This document shows positions 27,135 to 43,776 of a stretch of 46,041 bases of DNA, one piece after another (position 1 is the stretch's first letter; every line of letters begins with the position of its first letter). This stretch comes from Palleronia rufa. GTDB taxonomy: Bacteria > Pseudomonadota > Alphaproteobacteria > Rhodobacterales > Rhodobacteraceae. Location: NCBI RefSeq assembly GCF_000743715.1, contig NZ_JQEY01000003.1:291655-337695 (forward strand), read 5' to 3'. The position numbers were made by a program, and so were the translations under genes. A model generated the notes under the pieces. It was not told the DNA's origin and did not search any database. It saw nothing but the letters and a program-made list of their open reading frames with translations.

Positions 27135-28184
27135 GGCTTTGTTGCACGGCCCGGCTGCCGGGCGGACTGCCCCTTTCCCCTGACGGACTTATCCTACGGG
27201 TTTCGTGACGGGGATTCCGAGTGCGGTATAACGGTTGAGCACGGCGATGCGGACCTGGAGCTCGGCGACCTGTCGCTCGAAATCCCGCGCCATGAGGCGC
27301 TGCCCCAGTAGTTTCATGCAATGCATCTTCGTCTCGACGCGGCTGCGGCGGTGGTATCCGGTCAGGCGTCGCCAGAGGGATCGGCCCAGGTACTTCGACG
27401 CCCGCACGGCCTCGTTTCTGGCCATGGCGCCTGCGGTGTCCGGCTTCCATGGCCGCGCGTTCCGACGGGGCGGAATGACGGCATGGGCACCGCGATCGGC
27501 AATCGCATCGTGACAACGGCGGGTATCGTAGGCGCCGTCGGCCGTGACCGAGCCGATCTGCTCGTCCGCAGGGATCTGACCGATCAAGTCCGGCAACACG
27601 GGCGCATCGCCAACATGGCTGCCGGTGATCTCGACGGCCCGGACCTCCATCGTCGCTTCGTCGATACCCAGATGAACCTTGCGCCAAACGCGCCGGCGGG
27701 CACCGCCATGCTTGCGGGCATGCCACTCGCCCTCCCCGCGGACCTTGATCCCGGTGCTATCTACCAGCAGGTGCAGCGGCCCTTTCGAGCCTCGGTAGGG
27801 CAGCCTGACCGCCAAGGTCCGCTGACGCCGGCACAACGTACTGTAATCCGGCACTGTCCAGTCCAGCCCGGCCAACCGCAACAGGCTCGCGACGAATCCC
27901 GCCGTCTGACGGAGCGGTAGGCCGAACAGGACCTTGATCGTCAGGCAGGCTTGGATCGCCTCATCGCTGTAGGCCTGCTGGCCGCCCCGCCTGCCGGTCG
28001 GTGCCGCCTCCCACGTCATCTCCGGGTCGAACCAGAGCGTCAGCGAGCCACGCTCACGCAGTGCGGCGTTGTAGGCATGCCAGTTCAGGGTGCGGTATCG
28101 GGTCGGGGAAGGTCGGGTCATGCGGACCGGCTATCCCGTTGACCAGCCAATGTGAATCCTAGTACGGGTCCGTGCAACAAAGCC
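27135..28184 (-). mobile_element. IS5-family insertion sequence
   Basis: A 1,050-bp element with terminal inverted repeats GGCTTTGTTGCACGG (27135) and the complementary CCGTGCAACAAAGCC (ending 28184). One transposase gene on the minus strand. No target duplication: flanks are TGAA on the left and CAGA on the right. It joins a truncated IS3 remnant to a truncated gene, so its arrival or a later deletion removed intervening DNA. Confidence 0.9.
27189..28121 (-). CDS. IS5-family transposase
   Basis: A 310-residue DDE transposase. Family landmarks: N-terminal WFDPEMTWEAAPTGRRGGQQ, then LLRLAGLDWTVPDYSTLCRR, first catalytic Asp in LHLLVDSTGIKVRGEGEW, second in SVTADGAYDTRRCHD, and the YREK-like segment with the Glu in YHRRSRVETKMHCMKLLGQR. 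All three catalytic residues are present and the frame is intact, so it may be active. Start ATG 28121. Confidence 0.93.
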   Translation of the reverse strand: MTRPSPTRYRTLNWHAYNAALRERGSLTLWFDPEMTWEAAPTGRRGGQQAYSDEAIQACLTIKVLFGLPLRQTAGFVASLLRLAGLDWTVPDYSTLCRRQRTLAVRLPYRGSKGPLHLLVDSTGIKVRGEGEWHARKHGGARRRVWRKVHLGIDEATMEVRAVEITGSHVGDAPVLPDLIGQIPADEQIGSVTADGAYDTRRCHDAIADRGAHAVIPPRRNARPWKPDTAGAMARNEAVRASKYLGRSLWRRLTGYHRRSRVETKMHCMKLLGQRLMARDFERQVAELQVRIAVLNRYTALGIPVTKPVG

Positions 28185-29077: not shown

Positions 29078-29608
29078 CTAGCTAAACGCCGCGACCACGG
29101 TTTCGATAGGCAGGAACAGCGTCCGGCTGTCTTCGGGGTATTCGACGAACTCGGCACAGCGCAGATAGAAGTGTTTGGCCGCTTCATCCTTCGCCTGGAC
29201 CATCACGGCCCCGATACCAATGCTTTGCGAAGCCAGCGCAATCCGGCGCAGCGCGTCCGCCAAAAGGTCCGCGCCGAGACCCTTTCCGGCGTGGTCGAGG
29301 TCAACGGCCAGCCGGCCGACGACCGAGACCGGAATCTGGTCGGGCGCGTTGCGCCGCACCTTTCCGGGAGCCGCACCGCGCTCGACTGACCCGGCCGAAA
29401 TGCAAAAGTAACCGACGACCTGATTGCCCACGCACACGACATAGGTGCGCGAAAACCGGCTTTCGTTCTTCAAGGCGCGATGGCGCAACCAGTCGTTCAA
29501 CGCGGGCTCACCGCAGTCGAATGCCGAAAGGTCATGCTCTGCCGTCAGAGGAACTGGAGCAGACAGTGGCAATTCGGGATGGTCGGGCGTGTCGTCTATT
29601 TCTGCCAT
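29078..29608 (-). CDS. tacT: GNAT acetyltransferase toxin (TacT-like)
   Basis: A 176-residue GCN5-type N-acetyltransferase. TacT toxins acetylate the amino group of aminoacyl-tRNAs and block translation. Features: family start FDCGEPALNDWLRHRALKNE, beta-strand core TYVVCVGNQVVGYFCISAGS, acetyl-CoA loop VVGRLAVDLDHAGKGLGADL, and the Tyr-bearing end KHFYLRCAEFVEYPEDSRTL. Its start overlaps the end of the DUF1778 antitoxin gene by 13 bases, the standard TacAT arrangement with antitoxin first. In an ICE it may help keep the element. Confidence 0.9.
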   Translation of the reverse strand: MAEIDDTPDHPELPLSAPVPLTAEHDLSAFDCGEPALNDWLRHRALKNESRFSRTYVVCVGNQVVGYFCISAGSVERGAAPGKVRRNAPDQIPVSVVGRLAVDLDHAGKGLGADLLADALRRIALASQSIGIGAVMVQAKDEAAKHFYLRCAEFVEYPEDSRTLFLPIETVVAAFS

Positions 29609-29937
29609 GCCGGGGTCCGGCGCAGCAGGGCCTTGAGCTTCGGCCCCGGCGCGGGCGGATTGTCGAGCGCCTGCATGAAGGCGTCGTAGCGCTCGGGGTC
29701 GAGCGTGAACAGGCGCTGGTCGAGCAGCACGTCGACCGCTTGCCGCCGGGCGCTTTCCACCATGAACTCGGTGCGTGTCTTGCCGAGCACAGCCGCCGCA
29801 TCGTCGATGAGCTGGCGCGTGCCGGTCTCGATCCGCAGATTGATGCTGCCCTTGGTGTCAGCCGTAGAGGCACGACCTGCAACCGCGGTGGTCGCAGAAC
29901 GGGCAGATTCCGAAGGGACGATACGAGCTTTGGTCAT
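29596..29937 (-). CDS. tacA: DUF1778 antitoxin (TacA-like)
   Basis: A 113-residue antitoxin. A ribbon-helix-helix segment is at about residues 31-75 (INLRIETGTRQLIDDAAAVL, then GKTRTEFMVESARRQ), and the C-terminal tail (PERYDAFMQALDNPPAPGPK) is the part that neutralises the acetyltransferase. It presumably represses its own promoter as a complex with TacT. The start is ATG 29937; the frame is open to 30072 but a near-perfect promoter (29944-29972) ends six bases before this ATG, which suggests a leaderless message. Confidence 0.88.
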   Translation of the reverse strand: MTKARIVPSESARSATTAVAGRASTADTKGSINLRIETGTRQLIDDAAAVLGKTRTEFMVESARRQAVDVLLDQRLFTLDPERYDAFMQALDNPPAPGPKLKALLRRTPAWQK

Positions 29938-29943
29938 GATCGC

Positions 29944-29972
29944 AATATGAGTGCGCGTATCCACAATGTCAA
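29944..29972 (-). promoter_or_regulatory. Promoter of tacA-tacT, predicted leaderless
   Basis: On the minus strand: TTGACA (29972-29967), a 17-base spacer, then CATATT (29949-29944). Transcription should begin about seven bases on, at or next to the tacA ATG (29937), leaving little or no 5' leader. The TacAT complex would be expected to bind here. Confidence 0.65.
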
Positions 29973-30724
29973 TACGACGGGAGGAAGGGAAGACTCGGGC
30001 GTTGCCCTGCGGGCCGGGCTTTCGGCTGCGCCGGAACCACGCCCATGGCGCGTTTCCGCCATTCGGCTTCAATCCCTAACGCAAGGGGGCGGCGGCGTCC
30101 ATTTCGCGGTAGGCTACACGCGGATAGACGGGAGCAATTCCGGGGCCTCGATCCCGGTCGCCGCGGCAGGCCCATGAGATTGGGTTTTCCATTCACTTCA
30201 ATTGGCAGGCGGATCAGCACCGGGAAAGGCCAAATCATCCGCTTGGCCGAGCATGGCGCAACGCCCCGCAAGCGATCTTCCGGCCAAACCGGACACGGCA
30301 GCATCGGCGAAGGTCAGACGAAACCACACCCGCAGGCCCACGCTGGCGACAGCGCGAATTGGCCTTGCCGGTCGGATCAGGGAAAACCGCAGCCAACAAA
30401 CCCGCGTAGAGTCCCCGATTCCGGCGAGGCACAGGACGGCCGCCATTGCCCTATTCCACGCGATTTCCTGTTATGAGCGCTCCATTCGCGTCCTCGATCT
30501 GGCAAGGTCTGACCGAAGACCGGCTTCGCCTCGCTCGTCTTCCCACAACGTCCGCCGCCAGCTTTTTTCCGCCGCCTTCGGCTTTGCAGCGCGAAACAAA
30601 AAAGCCGTCGCCGATCGCCTTCCACGATGTTCCAGCCCCAAGGGGTGCGGGGCTGATCGTCCCCGGTCTCACGACCGCCATCGAGGTCGCAATGGTGCGG
30701 CCCGACAGGAAAAGGAATACGACA
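29973..30724. other. Long intergenic region before the DUF736 gene
   Basis: No gene I can support in about 750 bases; the open frames here have shadow-like composition. It contains one structured hairpin element (30561-30605) and probably the promoter of the DUF736 gene. It may also hold remnants of genes lost from the ICE. Confidence 0.55.
30561..30605. repeat. Structured intergenic element 2 (TTTTCCGCCG...CAAAA)
   Basis: Outer stem GCTTTTTT (30561-30568) with AAAAAAGC (30598-30605), and an inner GCCG-CCTT-CGGC hairpin. It shares TTTTCCGCCG and GCTTTGCA-CGCGA-CAAAA with element 1. Ending in an A/T-rich stem, it could terminate transcription from either side. Confidence 0.65.
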
Positions 30725-31441: not shown

Positions 31442-32638
31442 ATGAACACCATGACCCTGAACCATCACCAGCAGCCCGTTTCCAAGGGCTTCCGCGTGGA
31501 CATTTCGCGCGGCGAAAATATCGGCCGCGTTTCGTCGGAATGGTTCTCGCGCCCGGATGACGAACGCTATCTGTCGCTGACCGAGCTTTATGAAGCCGTG
31601 AAGTCCCGCGCGGATCGCGCCAAGGCCCGCACCGTGGAGAGTCGCACCGTGCGTGTGGAAGCCAGCCGCGACGATGCCGAGTGGCTTTCGCTGATCGTGC
31701 CCGGACAGGAGCAGCCCGTCGCCCCGACGCATTGGAGTTTCGGCCAGCTTTGCAGCCTTGTCGGCGCACCGGCCCGCTACCTGCGTGATCTTCCCGCACC
31801 GCTGGCGGGCATCAATCTGCAACATGGCCTTGTCAGTCATCGCGGCGAATTGGTGAAGACACTGGAAACCGAGGATGGGCGCGTTGAGCTTCGCGCCGTG
31901 ACCGGCCCGGACTACGGGCGCATCTGGGACCATGAACTTGTCGCCGCCGTCATGAAGATCGCGGGCGATGGCGTCGGCGATACCATGTGGAAGGTGCCGG
32001 GCGTTCTGGATTGGGCGACCATGACGCACAATCCGTTCGTGGACGTGACCAAGGACACGACCACGCTTTATGCCAGCGACCGTGACGTGTTCCTGTTTCT
32101 GGTGGACGATACGCACCCCATCGAAGCCGGACGCCTGCCGAACGGCGACCCCGATCTTTATTTCCGGGGATTTTATTGCTGGAACAGCGAAGTCGGATCG
32201 AAGACCCTCGGCATCGCCTCTTTCTATCTCCGGGCGGTTTGCATGAACCGCAACCTTTGGGGCGTGGAAGGGTTCGAGGAAATCAGCATCCGGCACAGCA
32301 AGTTTGCCGCGCAGCGTTTCGCCCATGAAGCGGCTCCGGCTTTGACCAGCTTCGCCAATTCCTCGCCCGCGCCATTCGTGGCCGGGATCAGGGCGGCGCG
32401 CGAGCGGATCGTCGCCCGTACCGATGAGGACCGCGAGAGCTTCCTGCGCAAGCGCGGGTTCAGCAAGGCCGAGACCGGCAAGATCATCGAGACCGTGTTG
32501 CAGGAGGAAGGCCGCCCGCCCGAGAGCATCTTCGATTTCGTGCAGGGCATGACGGCCCATGCCCGCAGCAAGGTCCATCAGGACAGTCGCCTTGAACTGG
32601 AGGCGAAGGCTAAGACCTTGCTGGAGAAGGCCGCCTAA
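31442..32638 (+). CDS. DUF932 domain protein
   Basis: A 398-residue soluble protein of the DUF932 family, common on phages, plasmids and ICEs; some relatives are described as plasmid/phage proteins with possible recombination or replication roles, but no activity is established. Recognisable parts: THWSFGQLCSLVGAPARYLR, LELRAVTGPDYGRIWDHEL-like segment (VELRAVTGPDYGRIWDHELV), YRGFYCWNSEVGSKTLGIAS-like segment (LYFRGFYCWNSEVGSKTLGI) and CMNRNLWGVEGFEEISIRHS. Start ATG 31442 has an AAAGGAAAG ribosome-binding site. The 5' region is full of inverted repeats. A terminator follows directly. Confidence 0.9.
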   Translation: MNTMTLNHHQQPVSKGFRVDISRGENIGRVSSEWFSRPDDERYLSLTELYEAVKSRADRAKARTVESRTVRVEASRDDAEWLSLIVPGQEQPVAPTHWSFGQLCSLVGAPARYLRDLPAPLAGINLQHGLVSHRGELVKTLETEDGRVELRAVTGPDYGRIWDHELVAAVMKIAGDGVGDTMWKVPGVLDWATMTHNPFVDVTKDTTTLYASDRDVFLFLVDDTHPIEAGRLPNGDPDLYFRGFYCWNSEVGSKTLGIASFYLRAVCMNRNLWGVEGFEEISIRHSKFAAQRFAHEAAPALTSFANSSPAPFVAGIRAARERIVARTDEDRESFLRKRGFSKAETGKIIETVLQEEGRPPESIFDFVQGMTAHARSKVHQDSRLELEAKAKTLLEKAA

Positions 32639-32951: not shown

Positions 32952-33167
32952 ATGCTGAAGATCAATTGGCGGGCGCCGGCGGCCTACAGGCACACGCGCA
33001 AGATTCCCGCCGCCGGATTCGCCTGGGAGTATCTGCGTCGCAACGACGATTACCGAGAGGACTTCCGGCTTCTCGTCCGCGCGAAGCGCCCGGATGCGAC
33101 CGAGCTGGAAGCCTTCGCCCGACGCTGGGGCTTGCGATTTCCCGCACGATCCCGACGCCGCGCCTGA
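32952..33167 (+). CDS. fseA: FseA-like excision activator, N-terminal half (DUF6499)
   Basis: A 71-residue frame with the DUF6499/transcriptional-regulator-like domain: WRAPAAYRHTRKIPAAGFAW, then EYLRRNDDYREDFRLL and FARRWGLRFP. In ICEMlSym of Mesorhizobium, two overlapping genes of this kind (msi172 and msi171) are joined by +1 programmed ribosomal frameshifting to make FseA, which activates the excisionase gene rdfS. Here the frame would end a few codons after P64, but a +1 step at TTT CCC GCA leads straight into the DUF2285 frame. The start ATG 32952 follows GGGAGGG. Confidence 0.82.
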   Translation: MLKINWRAPAAYRHTRKIPAAGFAWEYLRRNDDYREDFRLLVRAKRPDATELEAFARRWGLRFPARSRRRA

Positions 33168-33735
33168 CCGCGACCCGCTGTTCTGGTCGCCCCGGTTTCA
33201 GCCGCAAGCCGTCAAACTGGTGCCGGCCGAACCGGATGAGACGGCCAGCCAGCCGACCGTCGTTCTCGCCCATCTCGACGGCCTCGACCTGCGCCGCGCC
33301 GCCGATGGCTGGCACGGCATCTGGCAGGCGGATGGCGTCGAGCACCAATTCTGGCTGTCCCAATCCGTGCCGGATGCGGCGGCGTTCTACGCCGTCGAAC
33401 TGCCTCTGGACGACTTCATGGAGCTTCGCGCCCATGCGGCGCGGCGCTTCTGGCGATCCCTCAAGGGCCGAACGCCTGGCCCCGACTTCCGCAACATGCC
33501 CGCCCAGCTCCGGCAATGGCATATCCTGTCCCTGCGCGCCCTCGACGCCCGGCTGCGCGGCGAGAGCTATCGCACCATTGCCGAAGTCCTGCTTGGCTTT
33601 CGGGGCGCTAAGGAGGACTTCGAGAGCGATCCGAGCAAGAACAAGGCGCGTCGCCTCGTTGCCCACGGCATCAGGATGATGCGCGGCGGCTATCGTCTGC
33701 TGCTACACTATCCGATCAGGATTCAACCAAGGTAA
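33094..33735 (+). CDS. fseA: FseA-like excision activator, C-terminal half (DUF2285)
   Basis: The downstream frame encodes the DUF2285 part of FseA: DPLFWSPRFQPQAVKLVPAE, LRALDARLRGESYRTIAEVL, LGFRGAKEDFESDPSKNKAR and LVAHGIRMMRGGYRLLL. As a separate gene it could start at 33094, but that start has no good ribosome-binding site and its first 17 codons overlap the upstream frame. Joined at 33141-33145 the product is about 260 residues and reads RWGLRFP-HDPDAAPDRDP without a gap. The small DUF2285 protein at 36060-36347 resembles QseM, the antiactivator that binds FseA. Confidence 0.85.
   Translation: MRPSWKPSPDAGACDFPHDPDAAPDRDPLFWSPRFQPQAVKLVPAEPDETASQPTVVLAHLDGLDLRRAADGWHGIWQADGVEHQFWLSQSVPDAAAFYAVELPLDDFMELRAHAARRFWRSLKGRTPGPDFRNMPAQLRQWHILSLRALDARLRGESYRTIAEVLLGFRGAKEDFESDPSKNKARRLVAHGIRMMRGGYRLLLHYPIRIQPR
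33138..33147 (+). promoter_or_regulatory. Candidate +1 programmed frameshift site
   Basis: In the upstream frame the codons are TTT (33138) CCC (33141) GCA. If the Pro-tRNA on CCC slips forward to CCG, the next codon is CAC (33145) in the DUF2285 frame. The peptide across the joint matches the expected domain linker. Frameshifting of this type is known for the homologous pair in ICEMlSym; that it happens here is inferred. Confidence 0.65.
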
Positions 33736-33897
33736 GGTATCTTGCTATCGGCGTGGTCTCGACGGTAGCCGTATCAATTGTCGACCTTTGCGCGATGTGC
33801 TGCGGATGAAGCATCGCGTACTTCGCGAGTATAAACATTGAAGCGCGTTCGTTCGGTGATAGGCTCGGATGGGTGCTAATGGCAGGGGGGTAATAAA

Positions 33898-35904
33898 GTG
33901 AAGTTAGTTAAAGCGCGCGTTCAAAACTACCGTAGTGTTCGGGATACCGGTGAATTCGACGTAGAGGACGGCAAGACGATTCTCGTCGGGCCGAACGAGG
34001 CCGGTAAGTCCGCCGTTCTTCAGGCGCTACAACAGATATCTCGGCCCGACGAGGTGAAGCCATTCGATCAGCTTCGTGATTACCCGCGCGCGCTGCTCAA
34101 CGACATCACGACAGGTAAAGTGAAGCCGACGAATGTTCCTGTCGCGACGGGTTGGTTCGCACTTGATGAGGACGACGTGGCTGAGTTGCCAGCGTCGCTT
34201 CAGTCGAGCGAAATTACTTATCGGTTCACTCGCTACCTTGATGATACGTTTACAAACCAATTGGAGGGCGCGCCCGACAGGCCATCCTACGGTGATTTGG
34301 AAGCCGATCTCGTCCGTCTCGTACGCCACCTCGACGCTCAAGCCGGTGATGAAGAGCCAAAACCAAGTGTGTCGCTATCCCAGATCACGGAGGGCTGGCA
34401 GAAGCATACCGTTGTTACGGGAGACAAGGCGCAGACTATGTCGAAGTGGCTCAGCGACATGCTCGCCGTTGTGAATGAAGATGACGAGCGCGAGAATACC
34501 CGGTTAGCAAAGATACGGGAGCGCGTGTCTATCTCCATCGACCGGGACGCCGCTGTCGCCACCCTGCGTAAGCGACTTCCGGTTTTCGTGTTGTTCAGCA
34601 ATTACTTCCGTGTCCGCCCACTCATCCACCTCGGACATCTCGCGCAGCGGATCGCAAGCCAGGCATTCGATGACGATCAATACGACTACGGGAATGTTTG
34701 CCTTTTAAAGTTGCTTGGTCTCGACGCAGCTAAGCTGTCCGCGATGGGCAAGTCCGGCGTCGATGCGCATGGACAGCAGAATGCACAGCTCGATACGATC
34801 CGGGACGAACTCGACGCGCGGCAATATCAACTCAACGCGGCTAGCATCCGGCTAACGAAAGAGATCCGTTCGGCATGGAAGCCGAAAGTCGATCGAGGCG
34901 AGGCCGACACCCTCCGCATCACTTCGGACGGCCAGTACCTCAAAGTGGTTGTGGTGGACGACCTGGGCGTTGAAGTTGAACTCGATCAGCGGTCAGAGGG
35001 CTTTCAGTGGCTGGTCTCGTTCTTTGTGGTCTTCTTTGCCGAGGCTGAGGATAAGCACGAGAACGCCGTCCTGCTACTGGATGAGCCCGGCTTGCACCTT
35101 CATGGACTTAAACAGCGTGACTTCCGTGATACCCTTTCTCGCCTCGCGGAGGGCAACCAGACGCTCTACACAACGCATTCGCCGTTTCTCGTCGGACCCG
35201 ACGAACTCGATCGCGTGCGTGTGGTGGAAATGACGGATCGGGAGGTCGGGACGAAAGTCCACACCAGCGTCACATCGAACGATCCCGCAGCCCTGCTGCC
35301 CCTACAGGAAGCTCTCGGCTACGACCTTGCGCAAAGTCTCTTCTCCCAGCAGCGCAACTTCATCGTCGAAGGGTTGACCGATTTTTGGTATGTCGGTGCC
35401 GTCTCGGAACTATTCGAGGAGGCGGGCCAGGACGGTCTTCGGAAAAACATAGCCGTGATTCCGGCCGGAACGGCGGGAAAGGTCGTTTATTTCGCGACGA
35501 TCCTCCATGCACACAATTTGAGGGTGGCCGCACTTCTAGATTCTGACAGCGCAGGAGATTCCGCCGCCCAACAAGAAACGCTTATTCATAGTGTCGGGCA
35601 TAAGGGTATCTTACGCACGGCCGATGTGCTGGATGGAACAGTGACCAATCCGGAGATCGAGGATTTGCTCCGAACCACCTTGGCCTCCGTTGCAAAGGAT
35701 GAACTCGGTCATGAGTTGCCGGCGGTGACGGGCCAAACATCACGCTCGATGGCCTCGATCCTCAAGTCAGAGAAGCTGTCCAAATATCAGCTTGCCAAAG
35801 CATTTGTGCGGTGGTGCCGGAACCACAGCCTAAATGACTTGCTGGCAGAAGAGCGATCAGCTTGGGAAAAGCTATTTGCAAAGGCGAACTCTGCGCTGAA
35901 GTAG
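33898..35904 (+). CDS. OLD-family ATPase/TOPRIM endonuclease
   Basis: A 668-residue protein with an SMC/RecF-like ATPase and a C-terminal TOPRIM nuclease domain, the layout of OLD (overcoming lysogenisation defect) nucleases. Walker A is GPNEAGKSAVLQAL (G31-S38). The signature and Walker B region reads AVLLLDEPGLHLHGLKQRDF (about residues 390-410), followed by TLYTTHSPFLVG. The TOPRIM motifs are FIVEGLTDFWYVGAV (Glu near 491) and VAALLDSDSAGDSA (acidic pair near 549). There is no UvrD-like helicase (GajB) or reverse transcriptase beside it, so it looks like a stand-alone OLD, probably anti-phage or anti-plasmid cargo. Start GTG 33898 has AGGGGGG upstream. Its codon use is clearly less GC-rich than the ICE backbone. 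Confidence 0.88.
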   Translation: MKLVKARVQNYRSVRDTGEFDVEDGKTILVGPNEAGKSAVLQALQQISRPDEVKPFDQLRDYPRALLNDITTGKVKPTNVPVATGWFALDEDDVAELPASLQSSEITYRFTRYLDDTFTNQLEGAPDRPSYGDLEADLVRLVRHLDAQAGDEEPKPSVSLSQITEGWQKHTVVTGDKAQTMSKWLSDMLAVVNEDDERENTRLAKIRERVSISIDRDAAVATLRKRLPVFVLFSNYFRVRPLIHLGHLAQRIASQAFDDDQYDYGNVCLLKLLGLDAAKLSAMGKSGVDAHGQQNAQLDTIRDELDARQYQLNAASIRLTKEIRSAWKPKVDRGEADTLRITSDGQYLKVVVVDDLGVEVELDQRSEGFQWLVSFFVVFFAEAEDKHENAVLLLDEPGLHLHGLKQRDFRDTLSRLAEGNQTLYTTHSPFLVGPDELDRVRVVEMTDREVGTKVHTSVTSNDPAALLPLQEALGYDLAQSLFSQQRNFIVEGLTDFWYVGAVSELFEEAGQDGLRKNIAVIPAGTAGKVVYFATILHAHNLRVAALLDSDSAGDSAAQQETLIHSVGHKGILRTADVLDGTVTNPEIEDLLRTTLASVAKDELGHELPAVTGQTSRSMASILKSEKLSKYQLAKAFVRWCRNHSLNDLLAEERSAWEKLFAKANSALK

Positions 35905-36059
35905 CACGCGCGACTGCCGCTCTTGCTGGCCTAGTGGTGCACGCAGACGTTCGTACAGGCCGCAGCGAACGTCCGTAGCCGCCCGACCAATCGCAACGCC
36001 GCCACTGTAGCAGCCATGTTGGGCAATTCTAGCCTACATAGTGGTCAGAATTCGCCTTT

Positions 36060-36347
36060 TCACGTCTTATTGGCAGCAGCCTGTTCCAGTATCCGCTTGT
36101 AACCCTCACGCGAAAGCCATTGCGCGCGTTCGAGATGGCTTTGCCAGCATCGGCGTGTCCTGAACTCGTCGCCGACCGGATCGCGGTGCAGCACGATTTG
36201 CGCCACTTCCTTCCAGTCCGCGCCTTCCGCCTTCGCGTCGAGCAGCCGCAGATAGGTCACGAAATGCGCTTCGTCATAAGGCGTGATGTCGTTTCCCGTT
36301 GGCGCTTCATCGTCCACATCGGGATCGAGTTCGACGGGCGTTCGCAT
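36060..36347 (-). CDS. qseM: QseM-like DUF2285 antiactivator
   Basis: A 95-residue small DUF2285 protein: PTGNDITPYDEAHFVTYLRL, LDAKAEGADWKEVAQIVLHR and the C-terminal helix SHLERAQWLSREGYKRIL. In ICEMlSym, QseM binds both TraR and FseA and keeps the element quiet in most cells. Start ATG 36347 has an AAGGGGAA ribosome-binding site. It is divergent from the rdfS-like operon, with 469 bases between them. In ICEMlSym a DNA-binding gene, qseC, sits divergent next to qseM; I see no such gene here. Confidence 0.82.
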   Translation of the reverse strand: MRTPVELDPDVDDEAPTGNDITPYDEAHFVTYLRLLDAKAEGADWKEVAQIVLHRDPVGDEFRTRRCWQSHLERAQWLSREGYKRILEQAAANKT

Positions 36348-36816
36348 CGTCGTTCCCCTTCTACCCGGGAGCCGTGGTTTGCGGTGCGCCCCCGCAATTG
36401 GCCCCTCTGACCTGGTGATCGGGGAGTTAGTAACCGTGACTAGACGGCCCTATGACCTTTAGGCGGGCAGCCCTGGACATACGCCATAGGCTCCCCGACC
36501 ATAAGGTTCGAGGATGGTGGTGCCGTCACGGTCGGCACCTACCGCTAGTCAGGGGTTACTAAGCCCCAAAGCAGCGCGTCTGCTCCGCGTTCAGTCTTAC
36601 CCGACCCGCACGGGATTGTCTTCGGCGAATTGGCGCGCGCCCCACTGACACGCTGAATCTCTCCATCTTTTCAGTCTGATCCCGCCCCGGAGGGGGGTGC
36701 CGCCAGCGCGCGTGCGCAAATGCGGCACGCTACAGGCCGCCGGTCCCTCGCCATGGTTCGCCATAGCGCGCCGCCGTCATCGGCAGCGCCATCCACTGAC
36801 GAACCGGAGGTCATCC
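36348..36816. other. Gene-free region between qseM and rdfS
   Basis: A 469-base divergent intergenic region with no open frame I would call a gene. It must hold the promoters of qseM (leftward) and of the rdfS-repA-traF-rlxS operon (rightward). It contains the structured block at 36421-36566. Near its right end, CATGGTTCGCCAT (36752-36764) is an imperfect inverted match to the sequence around the rdfS start codon. Confidence 0.6.
36421..36566. repeat. Long inverted repeat with nested stems: operator pair, oriT or ncRNA
   Basis: The arm at 36427-36447 (TTAGTAACCGTGACTAGACG...) is repeated in reverse at 36542-36562 with few mismatches, and GGGG/CCCC extends it on the outside. Between them are ACCGTGAC (36433) against GTCACGGT (36525), CCTATG (36449) against CATAGG (36485), and a strong hairpin GGTGCCG-TCACGGT-CGGCACC (36519-36538). 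Some of these pairings exclude each other. The position between qseM and rdfS fits a regulatory operator or a transfer origin. Confidence 0.65.
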
Positions 36817-37089
36817 ATGGCGAACCGCCGCAATGCGGACCTGCCGCCGCGCCTTCTGCGCACACAGGAAGCCGCACGCTTCCTCGGCATTTCGATCCGC
36901 ACCCTTGAAAAGCACCGCACCTACGGAACCGGCCCGCTCTATCGAAAGATCGGCGGCCGTGTCCTCTATACCCTGCGCGATCTGGAAGCTTGGAGCGCCA
37001 TCGGCACGCGCAAATCCACCAGCGACACAAGTGCCGGCACCGTCTTCGCCGCGCGCCCGCTCACCCCCGAAGAGCGGGACGAGTGCTGA
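36817..37089 (+). CDS. rdfS: RdfS-like helix-turn-helix protein (excisionase type)
   Basis: A 90-residue protein with a MerR/AlpA-like winged helix-turn-helix: LLRTQEAARFLGISIRTLEK, then GTGPLYRKIGGRVLYTLRDL and the W of EAWSAIG. Small proteins of this type are recombination directionality factors; in ICEMlSym, RdfS heads the transfer operon, drives excision and is the target of FseA. The position directly upstream of repA-parA-traF-rlxS matches that. Start ATG 36817 follows CCGGAGG. The repA ATG follows the stop without a gap. Confidence 0.78.
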   Translation: MANRRNADLPPRLLRTQEAARFLGISIRTLEKHRTYGTGPLYRKIGGRVLYTLRDLEAWSAIGTRKSTSDTSAGTVFAARPLTPEERDEC

Positions 37090-38118
37090 ATGTTGCGCGA
37101 CGACGATGACAGCCCCGCGCAGCCGACCGACACCAGCGAGCGCAGCCGCCTCGACCCCTTTGTGGTCGCGACCGGCGACGCCGCGCCGCGCGACCAGCGC
37201 GACCTGATGGAACGGCCGTTCTTCTCGCTGGCGAAGCGGCCCCGCACAAAACCGATCCTCTATCAAACCGCCGATGTCGAGGTGCAGGTGTTCGCCATGC
37301 CCGAGCACGGCATGGCGACAATCTGGGATGCCGATGTGCTGATCTGGGCCGCAAGCCAGATCGTCGCGGCCGAGAATGACGGTTTCACCACGTCGCGCTT
37401 CTTTCGTTTCATGCCCTACCAGCTCCTGCGCGCCGTGGGGCGGGCCACCGGCAACCGGGATTACCTGTTGCTCAAGGCCGCGCTCGCCCGCCTGCAATCG
37501 ACCGTCATCGCGACGACGATCCGTAACGGGAAGCATTGGCGGCGACGGCAATTCTCATGGATCAACGAGTGGGAGGAAATGACGACGCGCGCCGGCCGCG
37601 TCGAGGGCATGGAGTTCGTCCTGCCCGAATGGTTCTACAACAGCGTCATCGACCGTTCGCTGGTGCTGACCATCGACCCGGCCTATTTCCGGCTGACCGG
37701 CGGCATCGAGCGCTGGCTCTATCGCGTCGCCCGCAAACACGCAGGGCGCCAGCCCGAGGGCTGGGCTTTCGAGATCGCCCACCTTCACCAGAAATCCGGC
37801 AGTTCGGCGCGGCAGTCCGATTTCGCGCTCGACCTGCGCCGCCTCGCAGTTCGTCAGTCGCTGCCCGGTTACAGCCTCCAGATCGAGTGGGAAGACGGGC
37901 GTGAACTGCTGCGCTTTGTCCCCGAAAATCTATCCACAGTGCCTGTGGGAAACCATGTGAATCCCATCGGGACATTAGGCGCACGGACTATCGGGACATT
38001 AGGCGCAAATCGCACGCCGTACTCTATAGAAGAATCTAACAATAAAACTAACTCTTCTTCTTTGACGCGCGCGCACGCGACCCATGGTGCCGGTGCCGCG
38101 CGGCGCGGTGCGCCATGA
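37090..38118 (+). CDS. repA: Replication initiator protein A
   Basis: A 342-residue protein of the RPA (replication initiator protein A) family found on alphaproteobacterial plasmids and ICEs. Family landmarks: ERPFFSLAKRPRTKPILYQT, HGMATIWDADVLIWAASQIV, LLKAALARLQSTVIATTIRN, WYRVARKHAG-like WLYRVARKHAGRQPEGWAF. It probably binds an origin and allows the excised circle to replicate. The C-terminal tail is odd: IGTLGARTIGTLGA is encoded by two 18-bp direct repeats, followed by an A+T-rich stretch (EESNNKTNSSS). This end may double as the origin. The last four bases (ATGA) overlap parA. Confidence 0.9.
   Translation: MLRDDDDSPAQPTDTSERSRLDPFVVATGDAAPRDQRDLMERPFFSLAKRPRTKPILYQTADVEVQVFAMPEHGMATIWDADVLIWAASQIVAAENDGFTTSRFFRFMPYQLLRAVGRATGNRDYLLLKAALARLQSTVIATTIRNGKHWRRRQFSWINEWEEMTTRAGRVEGMEFVLPEWFYNSVIDRSLVLTIDPAYFRLTGGIERWLYRVARKHAGRQPEGWAFEIAHLHQKSGSSARQSDFALDLRRLAVRQSLPGYSLQIEWEDGRELLRFVPENLSTVPVGNHVNPIGTLGARTIGTLGANRTPYSIEESNNKTNSSSLTRAHATHGAGAARRGAP
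37930..38066 (+). other. Candidate replication origin inside the 3' end of repA
   Basis: Three elements in order: CTATCCACA at 37930-37938, one mismatch from the DnaA box TTATCCACA and part of a small palindrome (TCCACAG-TGC-CTGTGGG); two exact copies of ATCGGGACATTAGGCGCA at 37966-37983 and 37990-38007 (24-base period, iteron-like); and 38021-38064, about three quarters A+T by my count in an otherwise GC-rich gene, a plausible unwinding element. Confidence 0.6.
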
Positions 38119-38768
38119 TCGTGGCGTTCCTCAATCAGAAGGGCGGCGTCGGCAAGACCACGCTGGCGCTGCATCTCGCCGGGGCCTGGGCGGCTGAAGG
38201 ACGGCGCGTCATCCTGATCGACGCCGACCCGCAAGGCTCCGCGCTCGACTGGTCTGAGCGGCGCAGCCATGAGGGGCTGCCGAGGTCGTTTAGCACCATC
38301 GGCCTGGCCCGTGACACGCTGCACCGGGAAGCCCCGGAGCTGGCCCGCGACGCCGACATGATCGTCATCGACGGGCCGCCGCGTGTCGCCGGCCTCATGC
38401 GCTCCGCGCTGCTCGCCGCCGACCTCGTGCTGATCCCGGTGCAGCCATCCCCCTTTGATGGCTGGGCGTCGGCCGAGATGCTGACGCTTCTGAATGAAGC
38501 CCGCATCTACCGGCCCGAACTAGCCGCCCGTTTCGTCCTCAACCGTTGCGGCGCGCGCACGATCATCGCCCGCGAGACGGCCGAGACGCTGGCCGATCAC
38601 GATCCGCCCTTGCTCACCGCCACCATCGGCCAGCGCGTGGTCTTTGCTGACGCCGCGCAGTCCGGCCGGCTTGCATCCGAGATCGACGTCGACAGCCCCG
38701 CCGCCCGCGAGATCGCGGCGCTGGCCGTCGAGATAGATCGGCTGCCCATCGGGAGAACCTTGCCATGA
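38115..38768 (+). CDS. parA: ParA-family partition ATPase
   Basis: A 217-residue Walker-type ATPase that partitions or stabilises the element. The deviant Walker A motif is QKGGVGKTTLALHLAG (signature lysine K9, K14 at the phosphate). DADPQGSALDW and MIVIDGPPRVAGLMRSAL complete the nucleotide site. No N-terminal HTH, so it is a small ParA as found on many plasmids. The start ATG overlaps the repA stop and its stop overlaps the next start, both ATGA. Confidence 0.92.
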   Translation: MIVAFLNQKGGVGKTTLALHLAGAWAAEGRRVILIDADPQGSALDWSERRSHEGLPRSFSTIGLARDTLHREAPELARDADMIVIDGPPRVAGLMRSALLAADLVLIPVQPSPFDGWASAEMLTLLNEARIYRPELAARFVLNRCGARTIIARETAETLADHDPPLLTATIGQRVVFADAAQSGRLASEIDVDSPAAREIAALAVEIDRLPIGRTLP

Positions 38769-39019
38769 CCGGGCGCATCCGCAAGCCCGGTTTCGCATCC
38801 CGGCCGGGCAATCCCGAAAGCTGGATCAGGGCGGGCGAAACGCCACCGAACGGCAAAGCCGCCGGCGAAGCGTTCACCGCCCGCCTGACCATCGACATCA
38901 CGCCCGAGCTGCGCGGCCGCATCAAGGTCGCAGCCTTCCGGCGTGGGATCACCGTCACCGACATGCTGCGCGACCTGCTGGCGCGCGAATTTCCATCCTC
39001 CGAGGGAGATCAACCATGA
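38765..39019 (+). CDS. Small RHH-like protein, likely ParA partner
   Basis: An 84-residue basic protein. The second half, FTARLTIDITPELRGRIKVA then AFRRGITVTDMLRDLLAREF, has the strand-helix-helix pattern of a ribbon-helix-helix DNA-binding domain. Located directly after parA with an ATGA overlap, it is well placed to be the centromere-binding partner, as in ParA-ParG-type systems. The name is inferred from position and fold, not from a clear family match. Confidence 0.78.
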   Translation: MTGRIRKPGFASRPGNPESWIRAGETPPNGKAAGEAFTARLTIDITPELRGRIKVAAFRRGITVTDMLRDLLAREFPSSEGDQP

Positions 39020-39534
39020 CCGGCAATGCGGCGCACCGCTTGCACGGCCGTCCGCTGCCGGACGAACCCGCGCCTTTCACCACCTTGGTCGAACTGACCT
39101 TCCAGAAACGCAAGATCGAGCACTGGATACGCTTCGGCCGCAAGAGCTACGAACAGATACTCGACCGCCGCCGCAGCATCGTCGGCTTCGCGCCCGGCAG
39201 CATCTTCGCCTTCGTGCGATGGGCGTCCGGCGCACATGGCACGATCGTTTCCCGCATCGACATCCTGCGTGCCATCGGCCGCGGCGAGCCGTTCCAGACG
39301 CTGCCCTTCGTCCGTCCCGGCGGCGACATCCTGTTGCGTCTCGATAGCTGGGCGAAGGTGCAGCGCGCATTGCAGGCCATCGACGCCGTGGAAGCGCTCG
39401 GCCTCGATCCTGCCGACATATCCCCGGAGCACTGGCGGCACGTCCACAATCGTCTGACTGCCGGTCTGGAGCCGCACGCCTATACGCCGGAGCGACACGC
39501 CGCCTGGCTCGGTCGCCAGAGGATCGACCCATGA
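39016..39534 (+). CDS. DUF2840 domain protein
   Basis: A 172-residue soluble protein of the DUF2840 family, seen almost only next to parA and traF on ICEs and plasmids. Landmarks: TTLVELTFQKRKIEHWIRFG, IVGFAPGSIFAFVRWASGAH, GTIVSRIDILRAIGRGEPFQ and WRHVHNRLTAGLEPHAYTPE. Function unknown; conserved position suggests a part in transfer. ATGA overlaps at both ends couple it to its neighbours. Confidence 0.88.
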   Translation: MTGNAAHRLHGRPLPDEPAPFTTLVELTFQKRKIEHWIRFGRKSYEQILDRRRSIVGFAPGSIFAFVRWASGAHGTIVSRIDILRAIGRGEPFQTLPFVRPGGDILLRLDSWAKVQRALQAIDAVEALGLDPADISPEHWRHVHNRLTAGLEPHAYTPERHAAWLGRQRIDP

Positions 39535-40076
39535 CGCGCCGCCGTATCCTCACGGTAACGGCGTTGGCCGTCACGGGCATCGCAGCCGCCAGCGTCGCCG
39601 ATTGGCCTGCGAAACTGATCTGGAACGCGACCGCCAGCGCGCCCATCGGCTTCTACACGGTCAGGCCGGCCGACGCGCTCGACGTGCCGGAGCTGGTAGC
39701 CGTCATGCCGCCCGAACCGCTGGAGCGATTCATGGTCGAACGCGGCTATGTCGGGCGCGGCGTGCCGCTCCTGAAGCGCGTCCTCGGACTGCCGGGACAG
39801 CGGGTCTGCCGTTTGCGATCCGCGATCACGGTGGACGGGATCGAGATGGGCGAAGCGCTCGACCGCGACCGGATCGGCCGCGATCTACCCGTCTGGCAGG
39901 GCTGCCGCGTCATCGCCTCCAGCGAAATCTTCCTCATGAATTGGGAGGTCCGCGACAGCCTGGACGGCCGCTATTTCGGACCCATCCCAGCAAGTTCTGT
40001 CATCGGCCGAGCGGTCCCGCTCTGGACCGATGAGGAAGGCGACGGCCGCTACGAATGGCGCGCGCCGACCCAATGA
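39531..40076 (+). CDS. traF: TraF-type S26 signal peptidase
   Basis: A 181-residue inner-membrane serine protease of the S26 (TraF) type, which matures and cyclises the pilin in conjugative systems related to RP4. One N-terminal membrane segment (ILTVTALAVTGIAAASVA), catalytic Ser S36 in TASAPIGFYTVRP and catalytic Lys K82 in GVPLLKRVLGLPGQRVC; the C-terminal GRYFGPIPASSVIGRAVPLW is typical. It starts with an ATGA overlap. Its substrate pilin and the rest of the transfer channel are not in the window. Confidence 0.92.
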   Translation: MTRRRILTVTALAVTGIAAASVADWPAKLIWNATASAPIGFYTVRPADALDVPELVAVMPPEPLERFMVERGYVGRGVPLLKRVLGLPGQRVCRLRSAITVDGIEMGEALDRDRIGRDLPVWQGCRVIASSEIFLMNWEVRDSLDGRYFGPIPASSVIGRAVPLWTDEEGDGRYEWRAPTQ

Positions 40077-40496: not shown

Positions 40497-41408
40497 ATGC
40501 AAACCCGCGTCATTCCCGCACTCAAGACCCTCATCCCGTTGTTCGCGGAAAGGCCGTCTCATCCCGTCGTCCCGCTCGGGCGCAAGACGGCCGGCGCGCG
40601 CAGCGCAGGTCAGGGGCGGCCATCGGCCGGCGCTTGCGCCTTGCCCTTGACCGCAGCGAGCACGCCGGCAGGCTGGGCTCAAAGCGGAGACAGGGCTGTA
40701 TGGCGCTATGCCGTTCTGATAATGACCGCCATGCTGTCACTCGGCGCGGGATCGGCAATGGCCGTTGCGCAATCGACGCCGATGGTCCGGCCCGCCGCCG
40801 TCGATCCCAACGCCGCCCACATTGCCGAAGCGGCGCGGCGCTTCGGCATCCCCGAGCACTGGATTGTCGCCGTGCTGCGCGCCGAAAGCGCGGGCGACGT
40901 GCGCGCGGTGTCATCGGCCGGCGCGATGGGGTTGATGCAGGTCATGCCCGACACCTGGGCGGGCCTGCGCATCCGTCATCGGCTCGGCCGCGATCCCTAC
41001 GACCCGCGCGATAACATCCTCGCAGGCACGGCCTATCTGCGCGAGATGTTCGACCGCTACGGCAATGTCGCGGCGATGCTGGCAGCCTACAATGCCGGTC
41101 CCGGTCGCTACGACGAATACCTTGCGACCGGCCGCGCATTGCCACCGGAGACCCGCGCCTATGTCGCCGCGCTAGCGCCGATCCTCGGCGGCGAGGCTTC
41201 TCCCGATGCAGCGCCGCCACCGCCCGACTGGCGCGAAGCCCCGCTCTTCGTCACGCGCCCGGCCGACGCGCGGACTGCCGCCGCGCCGCCATCCGGGGCG
41301 CAATCCGGCGACGGCCGCGCAACCATTCCGGTGCGCGATCCTGCCGATGCGGAGCCGGAAACCGGCAGCATTTTCGTGGCCCGCGCCGACGACGAGGGAA
41401 CGCCATGA
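40497..41408 (+). CDS. Lytic transglycosylase of the transfer operon
   Basis: A 303-residue protein with an SLT/lysozyme-like domain that cleaves peptidoglycan so the transfer apparatus can pass. Catalytic Glu is E130 in AVLRAESAGDVRAVSSAGAM, followed by GLMQVMPDTWAGLR, NILAGTAYLREMFDRYGNVA and LAAYNAGPGRYDEYL. From ATG 40722 the protein would start with a signal peptide (MTAMLSLGAGSAMAVAQ) and be 228 residues; the longer start at 40497 is possible but its first 75 residues look unlike the family. The C-terminal tail is proline/alanine-rich. Stop overlaps the next start. Confidence 0.9.
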   Translation: MQTRVIPALKTLIPLFAERPSHPVVPLGRKTAGARSAGQGRPSAGACALPLTAASTPAGWAQSGDRAVWRYAVLIMTAMLSLGAGSAMAVAQSTPMVRPAAVDPNAAHIAEAARRFGIPEHWIVAVLRAESAGDVRAVSSAGAMGLMQVMPDTWAGLRIRHRLGRDPYDPRDNILAGTAYLREMFDRYGNVAAMLAAYNAGPGRYDEYLATGRALPPETRAYVAALAPILGGEASPDAAPPPPDWREAPLFVTRPADARTAAAPPSGAQSGDGRATIPVRDPADAEPETGSIFVARADDEGTP

Positions 41409-41725
41409 GGACGGCGATCCGGCGCACGGCGCGACCCGTTCCGGTGTCCAGTCAGGCAGGTTTGCGCCTGGCTGGAATCCCGGTGGGAAGGACGGAAAGG
41501 GCGATAAGAAGGGAGGGCAAGATTGAAGGAACCGGCACCATGTCGGGCCGGTTTCCGAAATTGTTGTTGTCTGCACACTGGTTAGGCCGCCGTTTCCGGC
41601 ACCATGATCTTGAGCGGCGGAGTGCCGCGATTCCGTGCAACGCCCTGGCCTTGCAGGCTTTTGTTCGGCACCATGGCCGCCGATTGCCCGATTTTCCGCG
41701 ATTTCGGCCGGAGGCGCATCCATGA
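41405..41725 (+). CDS. Short ORF between transglycosylase and relaxase genes
   Basis: A 106-residue arginine-rich frame that overlaps both neighbours by ATGA, which argues for translation. Its sequence matches no family I know, and its middle contains an inverted repeat and three CGGCACCATG direct repeats, which argue for a non-coding role such as a relaxase binding site. It may be both, or not a gene at all. Confidence 0.4.
   Translation: MRTAIRRTARPVPVSSQAGLRLAGIPVGRTERAIRREGKIEGTGTMSGRFPKLLLSAHWLGRRFRHHDLERRSAAIPCNALALQAFVRHHGRRLPDFPRFRPEAHP
41530..41675 (+). other. Repeats upstream of rlxS, possible transfer origin
   Basis: Inverted repeat AACCGGC (41530-41536) / GCCGGTT (41547-41553), and three direct repeats of CGGCACCATG at 41533, 41597 and 41666, spaced 64 and 69 bases. 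The block ends 46 bases before the relaxase start. oriT sites often lie next to the relaxase gene and contain such repeats; no nick site can be named from sequence alone. Confidence 0.4.
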
Positions 41726-43776
41726 GCGCCGATGACGAAAACCGCTTCCGGCCAAGGCCCGGCCGCATCCGCTCGGACACCCCACGCGCGGGCAAGACCA
41801 AGAGCTTCCTCACGCAGGCGAAGAAGATCGCCCGGCAGCAGCGCCGCACCTCGCCCCGAGGCGGTTTCGGAACGGCGGCGTTCACATCCGCAACCCCGGC
41901 CGGTTCGCATACGGTCCTGTCGAGCGGCAAGGGCGTGAAGCGCGGGCGCGGCGCGGTCTTCGTCCGCACCCGCAATCTCGGCGGCGGCTGGCATCATCGG
42001 CAGCCGGGCGCGCGTCGCGTCATGGTTCAGCAGCGCTACATCCTTCACCCTGGAAAGGGCCGGAAGGCGCACTCCCATCTGCGCTATATCCAGCGCGACG
42101 GCACCTCGCGCGACGGCGAGCGCGGCCAGCTTTATTCGCGCACCGAGGACCGCGCGGATGGCGACGCCTTCCTGGAACGCGGCCAGGATGACCGCCACCA
42201 GTTCCGGTTCATCGTCTCGCCCGAGGACGGCGCGGAGCTGTCGGACCTTACGGCCTATACCCGCGACCTCATGGGCCGGATGGAAGCCGACCTCGGCACC
42301 CAGCTCGATTGGGTGGCGATCAATCACTACAACACCGGCCATCCCCATGTGCATGTCATCGTCCGGGGCAAGGACGATCTGGGGCAGGATCTGGTCATCA
42401 ACGGCGACTACATCGTTCATGGTGTCCGCGAACGGGCCAGCGAGTTGGCGACGCTGGAACTCGGTCCCGTTCGGGAGATCGAGCAGACCCGCAAGCTCAC
42501 CGCCGAGATCGACCAGGATCGTTTTACCCGCATCGACAGGGCCATGGTCGAGGAAGCCGACCGACGGTTCCTCGACCTGCGCCACGAACCGGGGGAGCCA
42601 AAGCGGCAGTTCGAGCACACGCTTCGCCTGCGCCGGCTGTCCAAGCTGGGGCGGATGGGCCTCGCCACCGAACACGCGCCCGGCGTCTGGGAATTGAACG
42701 AGCGGCTTGAATCGACCCTGCGCGAGTTGGGCGAACGCGGGGACATCATCCGCACCATGCAAAGATCGCTCGCCGCCGATGGGCTTGAGCGCGATCCCAT
42801 GACCTTCCGCATCCATGAGGGCGCACCCGCTGCACCCGTCACCGGCCGCGTCCTCGACAAATATCTCGCCAACGAGCTGGGCGACAATCTCACCGTCGTC
42901 GTGGACGGGATCGACGGACGGATGCACCACATCGCCAACATCGACCCCATGCAGTTGGAGGATGCCCGGATCGGCAGCGTCATCGAGATCGGTCGCACCG
43001 AGGCGACGGCCCGGCCGTCCGACCGCACCATTGCGACAATCGCCGAGGGCGGCATCTATCGCCCGAGCCGTCATTTGGAGCAGGCGAAGTTCGAGGGACA
43101 TGTTCCGGGCGGAGACTATGAAGGCTATGTCGATGCCCATGTGCGCCGACTTGAGGCGCTACGCCGCACCCGGATCGTCGAGCGGATCGACGCTGACCAA
43201 TGGCGCATCCCCCCCGACTTCGAGAACCGCGCCGCCGCCTATGACGCCGGTCGCGACAGACAGGCCAGCGTTCGCGTCCTTTCTCCCGTGAATCTGGACA
43301 GGCAGATCGGATCGGACGGCGCGTCCTGGCTGGACCGGCGACTGATCCATGGCGAGACGGCCGATCTTGCACCGACCGGTTTCGGCCAGCAGGTGCGCGA
43401 GGCCATCGACCGCCGCCGCGAGCATCATGTCGAACAGGGCGATGCTACCCGCGCACGCGACGGCCGCGTGCTCTATCGGCGCAACCTTCTCGCCATTCTG
43501 CGCGAGCGGGAGGTTTCCCGCGTCGGCGTGGAGATGGCTGAAAGAAAGGCGCTGCCGTTCCGCGCCACCACGGACGGCGAGAACGTCAGCGGCAAATTCA
43601 CCGGAACCGTGCAGCTATCCAGCGGCAAGTTCGCCATCGTCGAGAAGGCGCACGAGTTCACGCTTGTCCCTTGGCGGCCGGTCATCGACCGCCAGCTCGG
43701 TCGCGAAGTTATGGGCGTCGTGCAGGGCGGATCGGTGTCGTGGCAATTGGGGCGACAGAGGGGTCTCGGATTGTGA
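41722..43776 (+). CDS. rlxS: RlxS-type relaxase (DUF3363)
   Basis: A 684-residue relaxase/mobilisation nuclease that would nick oriT and lead the strand into the recipient. The N-terminal nuclease part has the histidine cluster in NHYNTGHPHVHVIVRG (H202, H209, H211), with QRYILHPGKGRKAHSHLRYI and FRFIVSPEDGAELSD upstream, typical of VirD2-like MOB_P-type relaxases. The C-terminal half is the DUF3363 region, with GVWELNERLESTLRELGERG and LGREVMGVVQGGSVSWQLGR at the end. The protein is full length. Start ATG 41722 overlaps the previous stop. In intact relatives traG/virD4 follows; here it does not. Confidence 0.93.
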   Translation: MSADDENRFRPRPGRIRSDTPRAGKTKSFLTQAKKIARQQRRTSPRGGFGTAAFTSATPAGSHTVLSSGKGVKRGRGAVFVRTRNLGGGWHHRQPGARRVMVQQRYILHPGKGRKAHSHLRYIQRDGTSRDGERGQLYSRTEDRADGDAFLERGQDDRHQFRFIVSPEDGAELSDLTAYTRDLMGRMEADLGTQLDWVAINHYNTGHPHVHVIVRGKDDLGQDLVINGDYIVHGVRERASELATLELGPVREIEQTRKLTAEIDQDRFTRIDRAMVEEADRRFLDLRHEPGEPKRQFEHTLRLRRLSKLGRMGLATEHAPGVWELNERLESTLRELGERGDIIRTMQRSLAADGLERDPMTFRIHEGAPAAPVTGRVLDKYLANELGDNLTVVVDGIDGRMHHIANIDPMQLEDARIGSVIEIGRTEATARPSDRTIATIAEGGIYRPSRHLEQAKFEGHVPGGDYEGYVDAHVRRLEALRRTRIVERIDADQWRIPPDFENRAAAYDAGRDRQASVRVLSPVNLDRQIGSDGASWLDRRLIHGETADLAPTGFGQQVREAIDRRREHHVEQGDATRARDGRVLYRRNLLAILREREVSRVGVEMAERKALPFRATTDGENVSGKFTGTVQLSSGKFAIVEKAHEFTLVPWRPVIDRQLGREVMGVVQGGSVSWQLGRQRGLGL

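Follow-up and report, generated by a model that had tools for sequence, protein, structure and literature searches.

A conserved TTT-C cassette at the probable +1 frameshift joint of an FseA-type activator gene in Palleronia rufa

The window, by which we mean the whole 46,041-nt stretch of Palleronia rufa DNA that was analysed, holds a gene in two overlapping frames amid what appear to be genes of a conjugative element. Its contig ends 3.5 kb further on and the trbI genes of the draft genome lie on other contigs, so only part of the element is in view. The features of this region are as follows.

31451-32638: open reading frame without a Pfam hit, between a DUF736 gene and fseA
32952..33167, + strand: frame-0 part of fseA, N-terminal domain PF20109/DUF6499, motif AWEYLRRN
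33126..33137, + strand: codons before the putative slip, TGG GGC TTG CGA (W G L R), CGA being the E-site codon
33138..33141, + strand: putative slip site TTT-C (TTTC in 112 of 119 anchored non-redundant +1 sites)
33142..33735, + strand: +1-frame part of fseA, middle region and C-terminal PF10074/DUF2285, stop 33733-33735
33898..35904, + strand: OLD-like ATPase gene with TOPRIM, GTG start (PF13175 7.5e-23, PF20469 7.9e-5), cargo between fseA and qseM
36060..36347, - strand: qseM-like antiactivator gene, lone DUF2285 (PF10074 2e-7; PDB 7uqt, QseM, 8e-18)
36697..36728, + strand: candidate FseA box GTGCCGC-N18-GCGGCAC, starting 120 nt upstream of the rdfS start
36817..37089, + strand: rdfS-like excision factor gene, HTH_17 (PF12728 4.5e-8), start inferred from relatives
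37090..38118, + strand: repA-like gene, RPA (PF10134)
38115..38768, + strand: parA partition ATPase gene (NF041546 1.1e-80)
39016..39534, + strand: DUF2840 gene
39531..40076, + strand: traF signal peptidase gene (PF10502 3.6e-26)
40497..41408, + strand: lytic transglycosylase gene (PF01464 2.9e-26)
41635..43776, + strand: rlxS-like relaxase gene, DUF3363 (PF11843 4.8e-148; PF03432 weak, 9e-4)

The frame-0 open reading frame (ATG 32952, stop 33165-33167, 71 aa) matches PF20109 over residues 5-64 (profile match, 1.3e-24; sequence FAWEYLRRN, of the AWEFLRRN type that marks the family), and a second one, offset from it by +1 and running from 33094 to 33735, matches PF10074 (5.5e-30); the names DUF6499 and DUF2285 for these families are those of PMC10359603 (excerpt) and of the annotation of a Ketogulonicigenium vulgare relative. 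The joint reads TGG GGC TTG CGA TTT CCC GCA, with TTT at 33138-33140, and frame 0 reaches its stop 8 codons past TTT. Judged from their sequence, the two frames are one FseA-type activator gene of a conjugative element. The initial annotation had proposed just such an activator, with an upstream DUF6499 frame and a downstream DUF2285 frame in +1 relation, and the two domain matches, the reading frame coordinates and the same offset in 120 of 144 non-redundant DUF6499 places uphold it; its joined peptide RWGLRFP-HDPDAAPD also stands, and is identical under the two slip models weighed below. The kinship that it drew to Msi172/Msi171, a published case of programmed +1 frameshifting (PMC10359603, excerpt), holds as well; FseA frameshifting is described also in PMC11963761 (excerpt).

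The window appears to hold the parts of the published circuit, namely FseA, QseM, RdfS and a candidate FseA box. The QseM-like protein is 95 aa long and lacks DUF6499; its net charge is -6 over the whole and -1 over the domain part, against +10 for the DUF2285 domain part of FseA (residue counts only); a negative surface is typical of QseM antiactivators, and a positively charged, DNA-binding DUF2285 surface of FseA. The candidate box has CG cores 22 bp apart, the published spacing of FseA half-site centres being about 22 bp (PMC10359603, excerpt). It is the sole exact match in the window, three others having 2 mismatches; by eye, its core is one base off the usual form, and comparable repeats in the rdfS-upstream region of other loci have core spacings of 19 to 22. 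RdfS-like reading frames were found in 131 loci. Where TraR quorum sensing governs FseA, a tra box and TraR/TraI genes are expected beside fseA. The draft genome has two LuxR-type genes (PF03472), neither of them on the window's contig, a placement that does not indicate quorum control of the window's fseA copy and does not speak against it either.

The OLD-like gene, which has PADLOC matches to Old (4.2e-26) and AriA (2.3e-25), lies in the convergent gap between fseA and qseM (33736-36060). This gap resembles a cargo spot: it is 7 bp long in the K. vulgare relative L152; a 2.1-kb stretch of it in the window is 87.7% identical to a stretch on a Paracoccus plasmid; and by eye it holds acetyltransferase-like reading frames in loci L189 and L192 and a methyltransferase-like one in L190. 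A further qseM-fseA pair of this genome lies on a different contig (G000:C19:14988-16093; loci L002 and L193), also in +1 layout, with TGGGGGTTGCGATTTC; cross-talk between the two pairs is possible.

Two known elements invite comparison. In ICEMlSymR7A of Mesorhizobium, FseA (msi172-msi171) likewise has DUF6499 and DUF2285 in overlapping frames with a +1 frameshift, accompanied by a QseM-type antiactivator and an rdfS-like gene with an upstream inverted repeat, a likeness at the level of the published layout; in the window, by contrast, qseM is convergent and downstream of fseA, from which the OLD-like gene separates it, the LuxR-type genes found are all on other contigs, and repA-parA follows rdfS. 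The conjugative plasmid pKvSKV1 of K. vulgare (L152) has 73.6% DNA identity over 91% of the query and shares the order DUF736 - fseA - qseM (reverse) - HTH - repA - parA. It differs in having no insert between fseA and qseM (the OLD-like gene is absent at this place), TTT CGC as slip site and a full-length Shine-Dalgarno (SD)-like stretch, and the window has one more reading frame (31451-32638) between DUF736 and fseA. The candidate box recurs in L152 as the same repeat with 6-bp arms and a diverged spacer, 122 nt from the annotated start as against 120 in the window.

Relatives were gathered by family-profile searches, an alignment-based scan and plasmid hits, keeping the top 30 loci of each genome search or the top 80 from the scan. 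This gave 184 sequences with 183 DUF6499 places, from which 39 near-copies were dropped to leave 144; copies of the window or of the second copy in its genome (L001, L185-L188) were excluded. The C-domain lies in the +1 frame at 120 of these 144 non-redundant places, while the other 24 comprise 11 fused genes, 11 without a C-domain hit, one in -1 and one in the same frame yet interrupted. The tryptophan of WGL served as anchor in all but one of the 120 +1 genes. Of the 119 anchored genes, 118 have no stop in the +1 frame between the joint and the end of their C-domain hit; the exception is L159, with a stop within its +1 frame. When the window is aligned, small gaps included, with seven relatives, third-position mismatches are commonest in frame 0 before TTT and in the +1 frame after TTT-C. 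Against L152, mismatches at codon positions one to three are 17/62, 16/61 and 29/62 before TTT and 31/193, 27/191 and 82/192 after it. Because codon-position constraint changes frame at the joint, both parts are under protein-level selection, with the switch falling at the joint itself.

TTT stands at 117 of the 119 anchored +1 sites and TTT-C at 112 (116 and 111 of 118 when L159 is left out and only sites with an open +1 frame are kept). The seven without TTT-C at the anchored place are four TTT-T, one TTT-A, one TGT-C and one shifted; L061 has TTT CGC one codon later than the anchored place. The C after TTT is thus nearly fixed, though it would have no coding role in joined FseA. The preceding codons are constrained at synonymous positions (GGG, UUR, CGA): TTT accounts for all 117 Phe codons at the site but for 25% of those in these genes generally, CGA for 77 of 83 Arg codons as against 10.5%, GGG for 86 of 114 Gly codons as against 14%, and UUA/UUG for 83 of 108 Leu codons as against 12%, these being counts from related genes that are not phylogenetically independent, with P values that are nominal. 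The window carries this cassette with TTT-C and CGA present, the SD-like part being reduced to TGGGGC where the usual form is TGGGGG.

The UGGGGG near the FseA frameshift site was remarked on earlier (PMC10359603, excerpt). With an assumed anti-SD, pairing of the stretch up to the Leu codon has a median of -9.6 kcal/mol over the 119 sites as against -2.85 kcal/mol for 952 other segments; a typed pattern of the 16S 3′ end was not found in the draft genome. TGGGGC of the window, under the same assumption, reaches -4.7 kcal/mol, tied with six others as weakest of the 119; this may mean that the gene shifts frame less efficiently than most, or that the SD-like stretch is dispensable. For an RNA structure as stimulator nothing convincing was seen in the 119 segments (mean z -0.10, s.e. 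0.11, downstream; -0.41, s.e. 0.14, upstream), the window itself scoring -0.85 downstream and 0.68 upstream.

With TTT-C common to the sites and a proline codon often absent, the slip would fall one codon upstream of where the initial annotation had placed it. That proposal, a move of Pro-tRNA from CCC to CCG (33141-33144), has in its favour that CCC G is present in the window, that re-pairing in the +1 frame is possible, and that it yields the same peptide: R-F-P-H arises from either slip, so the peptide alone cannot separate the two. Across the relatives, however, CCC follows TTT at just 56 of 119 sites and CCC-G at 36, against TTT-C at 112, and at 50 of the 112 TTT-C sites the codon after TTT is not one for proline, L152 of the window's own group (TTT CGC) being among them. 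In the joined protein, Phe is followed by P in 57 sites, A in 43, V in 8 and L in 6 (114 of 119), and this choice of residue explains the second and third bases of the post-TTT codon; selection of a slow A-site codon as a signal was set aside on the same ground. We consider the Pro-tRNA slip improbable, and TTTCCCG, once suggested as the unit to look for in alignments, gives way to TTT-C. The slip open to all TTT-C sites would be UUU to UUC alone, and the slipping tRNA is likely Phe-tRNA, moving from UUU (33138-33140) to UUC (33139-33141).

Other readings dispense with a slip altogether. If the DUF2285 part were a separate protein with its own start, as argued for Azorhizobium caulinodans (PMC9601964, excerpt) and as the two separate CDS of the K. 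vulgare record would have it, the +1-frame ATG at 33094, 45 nt upstream in the window, could serve, and an ATG, GTG or TTG does lie upstream in the +1 frame in 51 of 119 genes (ATG in 26, the window included). Yet 68 of 119 have none between the last stop and the joint, 41 of those 68 have none in the next 20 codons either, the linker runs on from one frame into the other, and nothing would explain why the TTT-C cassette has been kept; an independent start of the C part was rejected, the start codon not being conserved, and two separate proteins are very improbable. Disruption of the gene by an indel or an assembly error is hardly credible: some relatives have truly decayed (L034, L155, L156, L159), but the same +1 offset recurs in 120 of 144 non-redundant places across many genera, 118 of 119 keep an open +1 frame beyond the joint, both frames are constrained, and L002, the other copy in this genome, shares the layout. 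The initial annotation had itself named mutation or sequencing error as the alternative, to be recognised by close relatives with a single continuous frame; none was found among the window's nearest relatives compared, some of which are decayed instead, and as the layout is common to relatives with constraint in both frames, a fresh mutation or error is no explanation. An equally slight chance attaches to the conserved TTGCGATTTC being a DNA site, half an FseA box like GGCGATTT, in place of a translation signal. By eye it resembles the left half of the repeats upstream of rdfS, but has, also by eye, no partner half about 22 bp downstream; TTT-C is missing from all seven anchored fused genes, and DNA amplified from fseA failed to compete for FseA binding (PMC10359603, excerpt).

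We thus favour, with a probability of about 0.85, a single fseA gene whose frames would be joined by a +1 slip of Phe-tRNA from UUU to UUC. Most ribosomes would stay in frame 0, stop at 33165 and release the DUF6499 domain alone. A minority would pause at UGG-GGC-UUG-CGA-UUU-C, where peptidyl Phe-tRNA would move from UUU to the overlapping UUC; CCG would be read next and translation would proceed in the +1 frame to give full-length FseA (...WGLRF-PHDPDAAPD...). By homology, FseA would then bind the inverted repeat at 36697-36728 upstream of rdfS and turn on rdfS and the transfer genes that follow, and the QseM-like protein (36060-36347) would restrain FseA by binding its DUF6499 domain.

Fused genes occupy 12 of the 183 places in the fetched set, and TTT-C occurs at none of the seven that were anchored. 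An open frame of at least 230 aa was seen at 33 of 65 places among the matches listed in a phylum search, fused genes being commoner among weak matches than in the fetched set, which favours strong ones. An unrooted tree was built of 62 rows out of 126 usable, namely the window, 6 fused rows and 55 further +1 rows drawn at random. Its midpoint split (support 94/90) sets 51 rows, all +1, apart from 11 rows (6 fused, 5 +1); since another branch (97/89) separates the window, 23 further +1 rows and the 6 fused rows from the rest, and the tree is unrooted, the midpoint split should not be taken for a clade of fused genes. At least three changes between fused and +1 are needed on this tree. The frameshift may be an ancestral throttle on activation of the element, as put forward at the outset, but the tree, being unrooted, does not decide its age: the window's own 6-row clade (100/100) is wholly +1, and fused genes lie elsewhere, together with some +1 genes. 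RovC of Yersinia, of the same C-terminal domain family of DNA-binding proteins (PF10074 carries its name), is encoded in a single fused frame. It is called distantly related to FseA in PMC10359603 (excerpt). Comparison by sequence of the FseA C part with solved structures did not find RovC, and gave one weak match to an unrelated enzyme (0.06).

The release factor 2 gene prfB likewise has a +1 slip in a bacterial gene, where an SD-like element upstream ends 3 nt before the slip codon. The window differs in that a sense codon follows the slip and 6 nt separate the SD-like run from the slip codon; the prfB shift is at the codon before a UGA stop and is autoregulated (PMC5009743, excerpt). Closer in the slip itself are influenza A PA-X and the +1 sites of plant amalgaviruses (UUU_CGN), which have the same UUU_C slip (PMC3498833, excerpt; PMC5052127). 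P-site slippage at UUU_C in PA-X, with tRNA-Phe preferring UUC, is described in PMC3498833 (excerpt), which predicts a broader class whose E- and A-site codons are restricted; no stimulatory signal is evident in PA-X (PMC5009743, excerpt). These are eukaryotic viral mRNAs, unlike fseA, and have no SD-like stretch, an analogy and not kinship. The window has UUU and then C in frame 0, with the product continuing in +1, as in the PA-X class.

FseA frameshifting is published and widespread, and the window's gene is therefore one more case of a known switch, to which a sharper cassette and a weakened SD-like stretch are testable additions. The R7A frameshift site was reportedly mapped in a 2015 PNAS study. 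No naming of UUU_C or CGA for FseA was found in excerpts of PMC10359603, PMC5009743, PMC8627217, PMC5882170, PMC11963761 and PMC9601964, and the 2015 mapping paper may well contain it. That the +1 arrangement reaches alpha-, beta- and gammaproteobacteria is already in print, with 4,709 FseA homologues of which about 61% have a +1 site (PMC10359603, excerpt). What the present comparison contributes is the corrected slip site, TTT-C, together with the synonymous constraint seen in the three preceding codons, including CGA and the SD-like GGG. The cassette offers a simple rule for spotting misannotated FseA genes and makes it possible to test directly which features govern how often conjugative elements excise. 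Tentatively, at rather less than even odds, FseA genes may form a large bacterial UUU_C +1 family of the class predicted in PMC3498833 (excerpt), with E-site CGA selected and the SD-like UGGGGG tuning the rate; the window would belong to a minority with a weakened stretch, and the excision rate of mobile elements would be set by single synonymous bases in one cassette.

Several further observations were made. Decayed or cut relatives of the window's gene, with stops, deletions or a missing C-terminal part, are L034, L155, L156 and L159 (= L191). Locus L102, from Azorhizobium oxalatiphilum, has the +1 layout with TGGGGGTTGCGATTTCGTC and a TTG upstream in the +1 frame; this contrasts with the statement that the homologous pair of A. 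caulinodans, known here from that paper alone, shows no frameshifting, each part having its own start and stop (PMC9601964, excerpt). Elsewhere in the window, overlapping genes for a GNAT acetyltransferase and a TacA-like antitoxin (29078-29608 and 29596-30072, both on the - strand) resemble a TacAT-type pair. An IS5-type transposase gene (27189-28121, - strand) matched three plasmid records, of Qingshengfaniella, Pseudosulfitobacter and Paracoccus, at 79% identity or less; we take all three genera to be Rhodobacterales, in keeping with the type of host guessed in the initial annotation. Two reading frames in opposite orientation (3150-3884, - strand, and 23269-24003, + strand) have the same 244-aa translation, transposase-like by eye; the genes between them are chromosomal-looking by eye and adjoin the left edge of the conjugative element, and an inversion between the two identical frames is possible.
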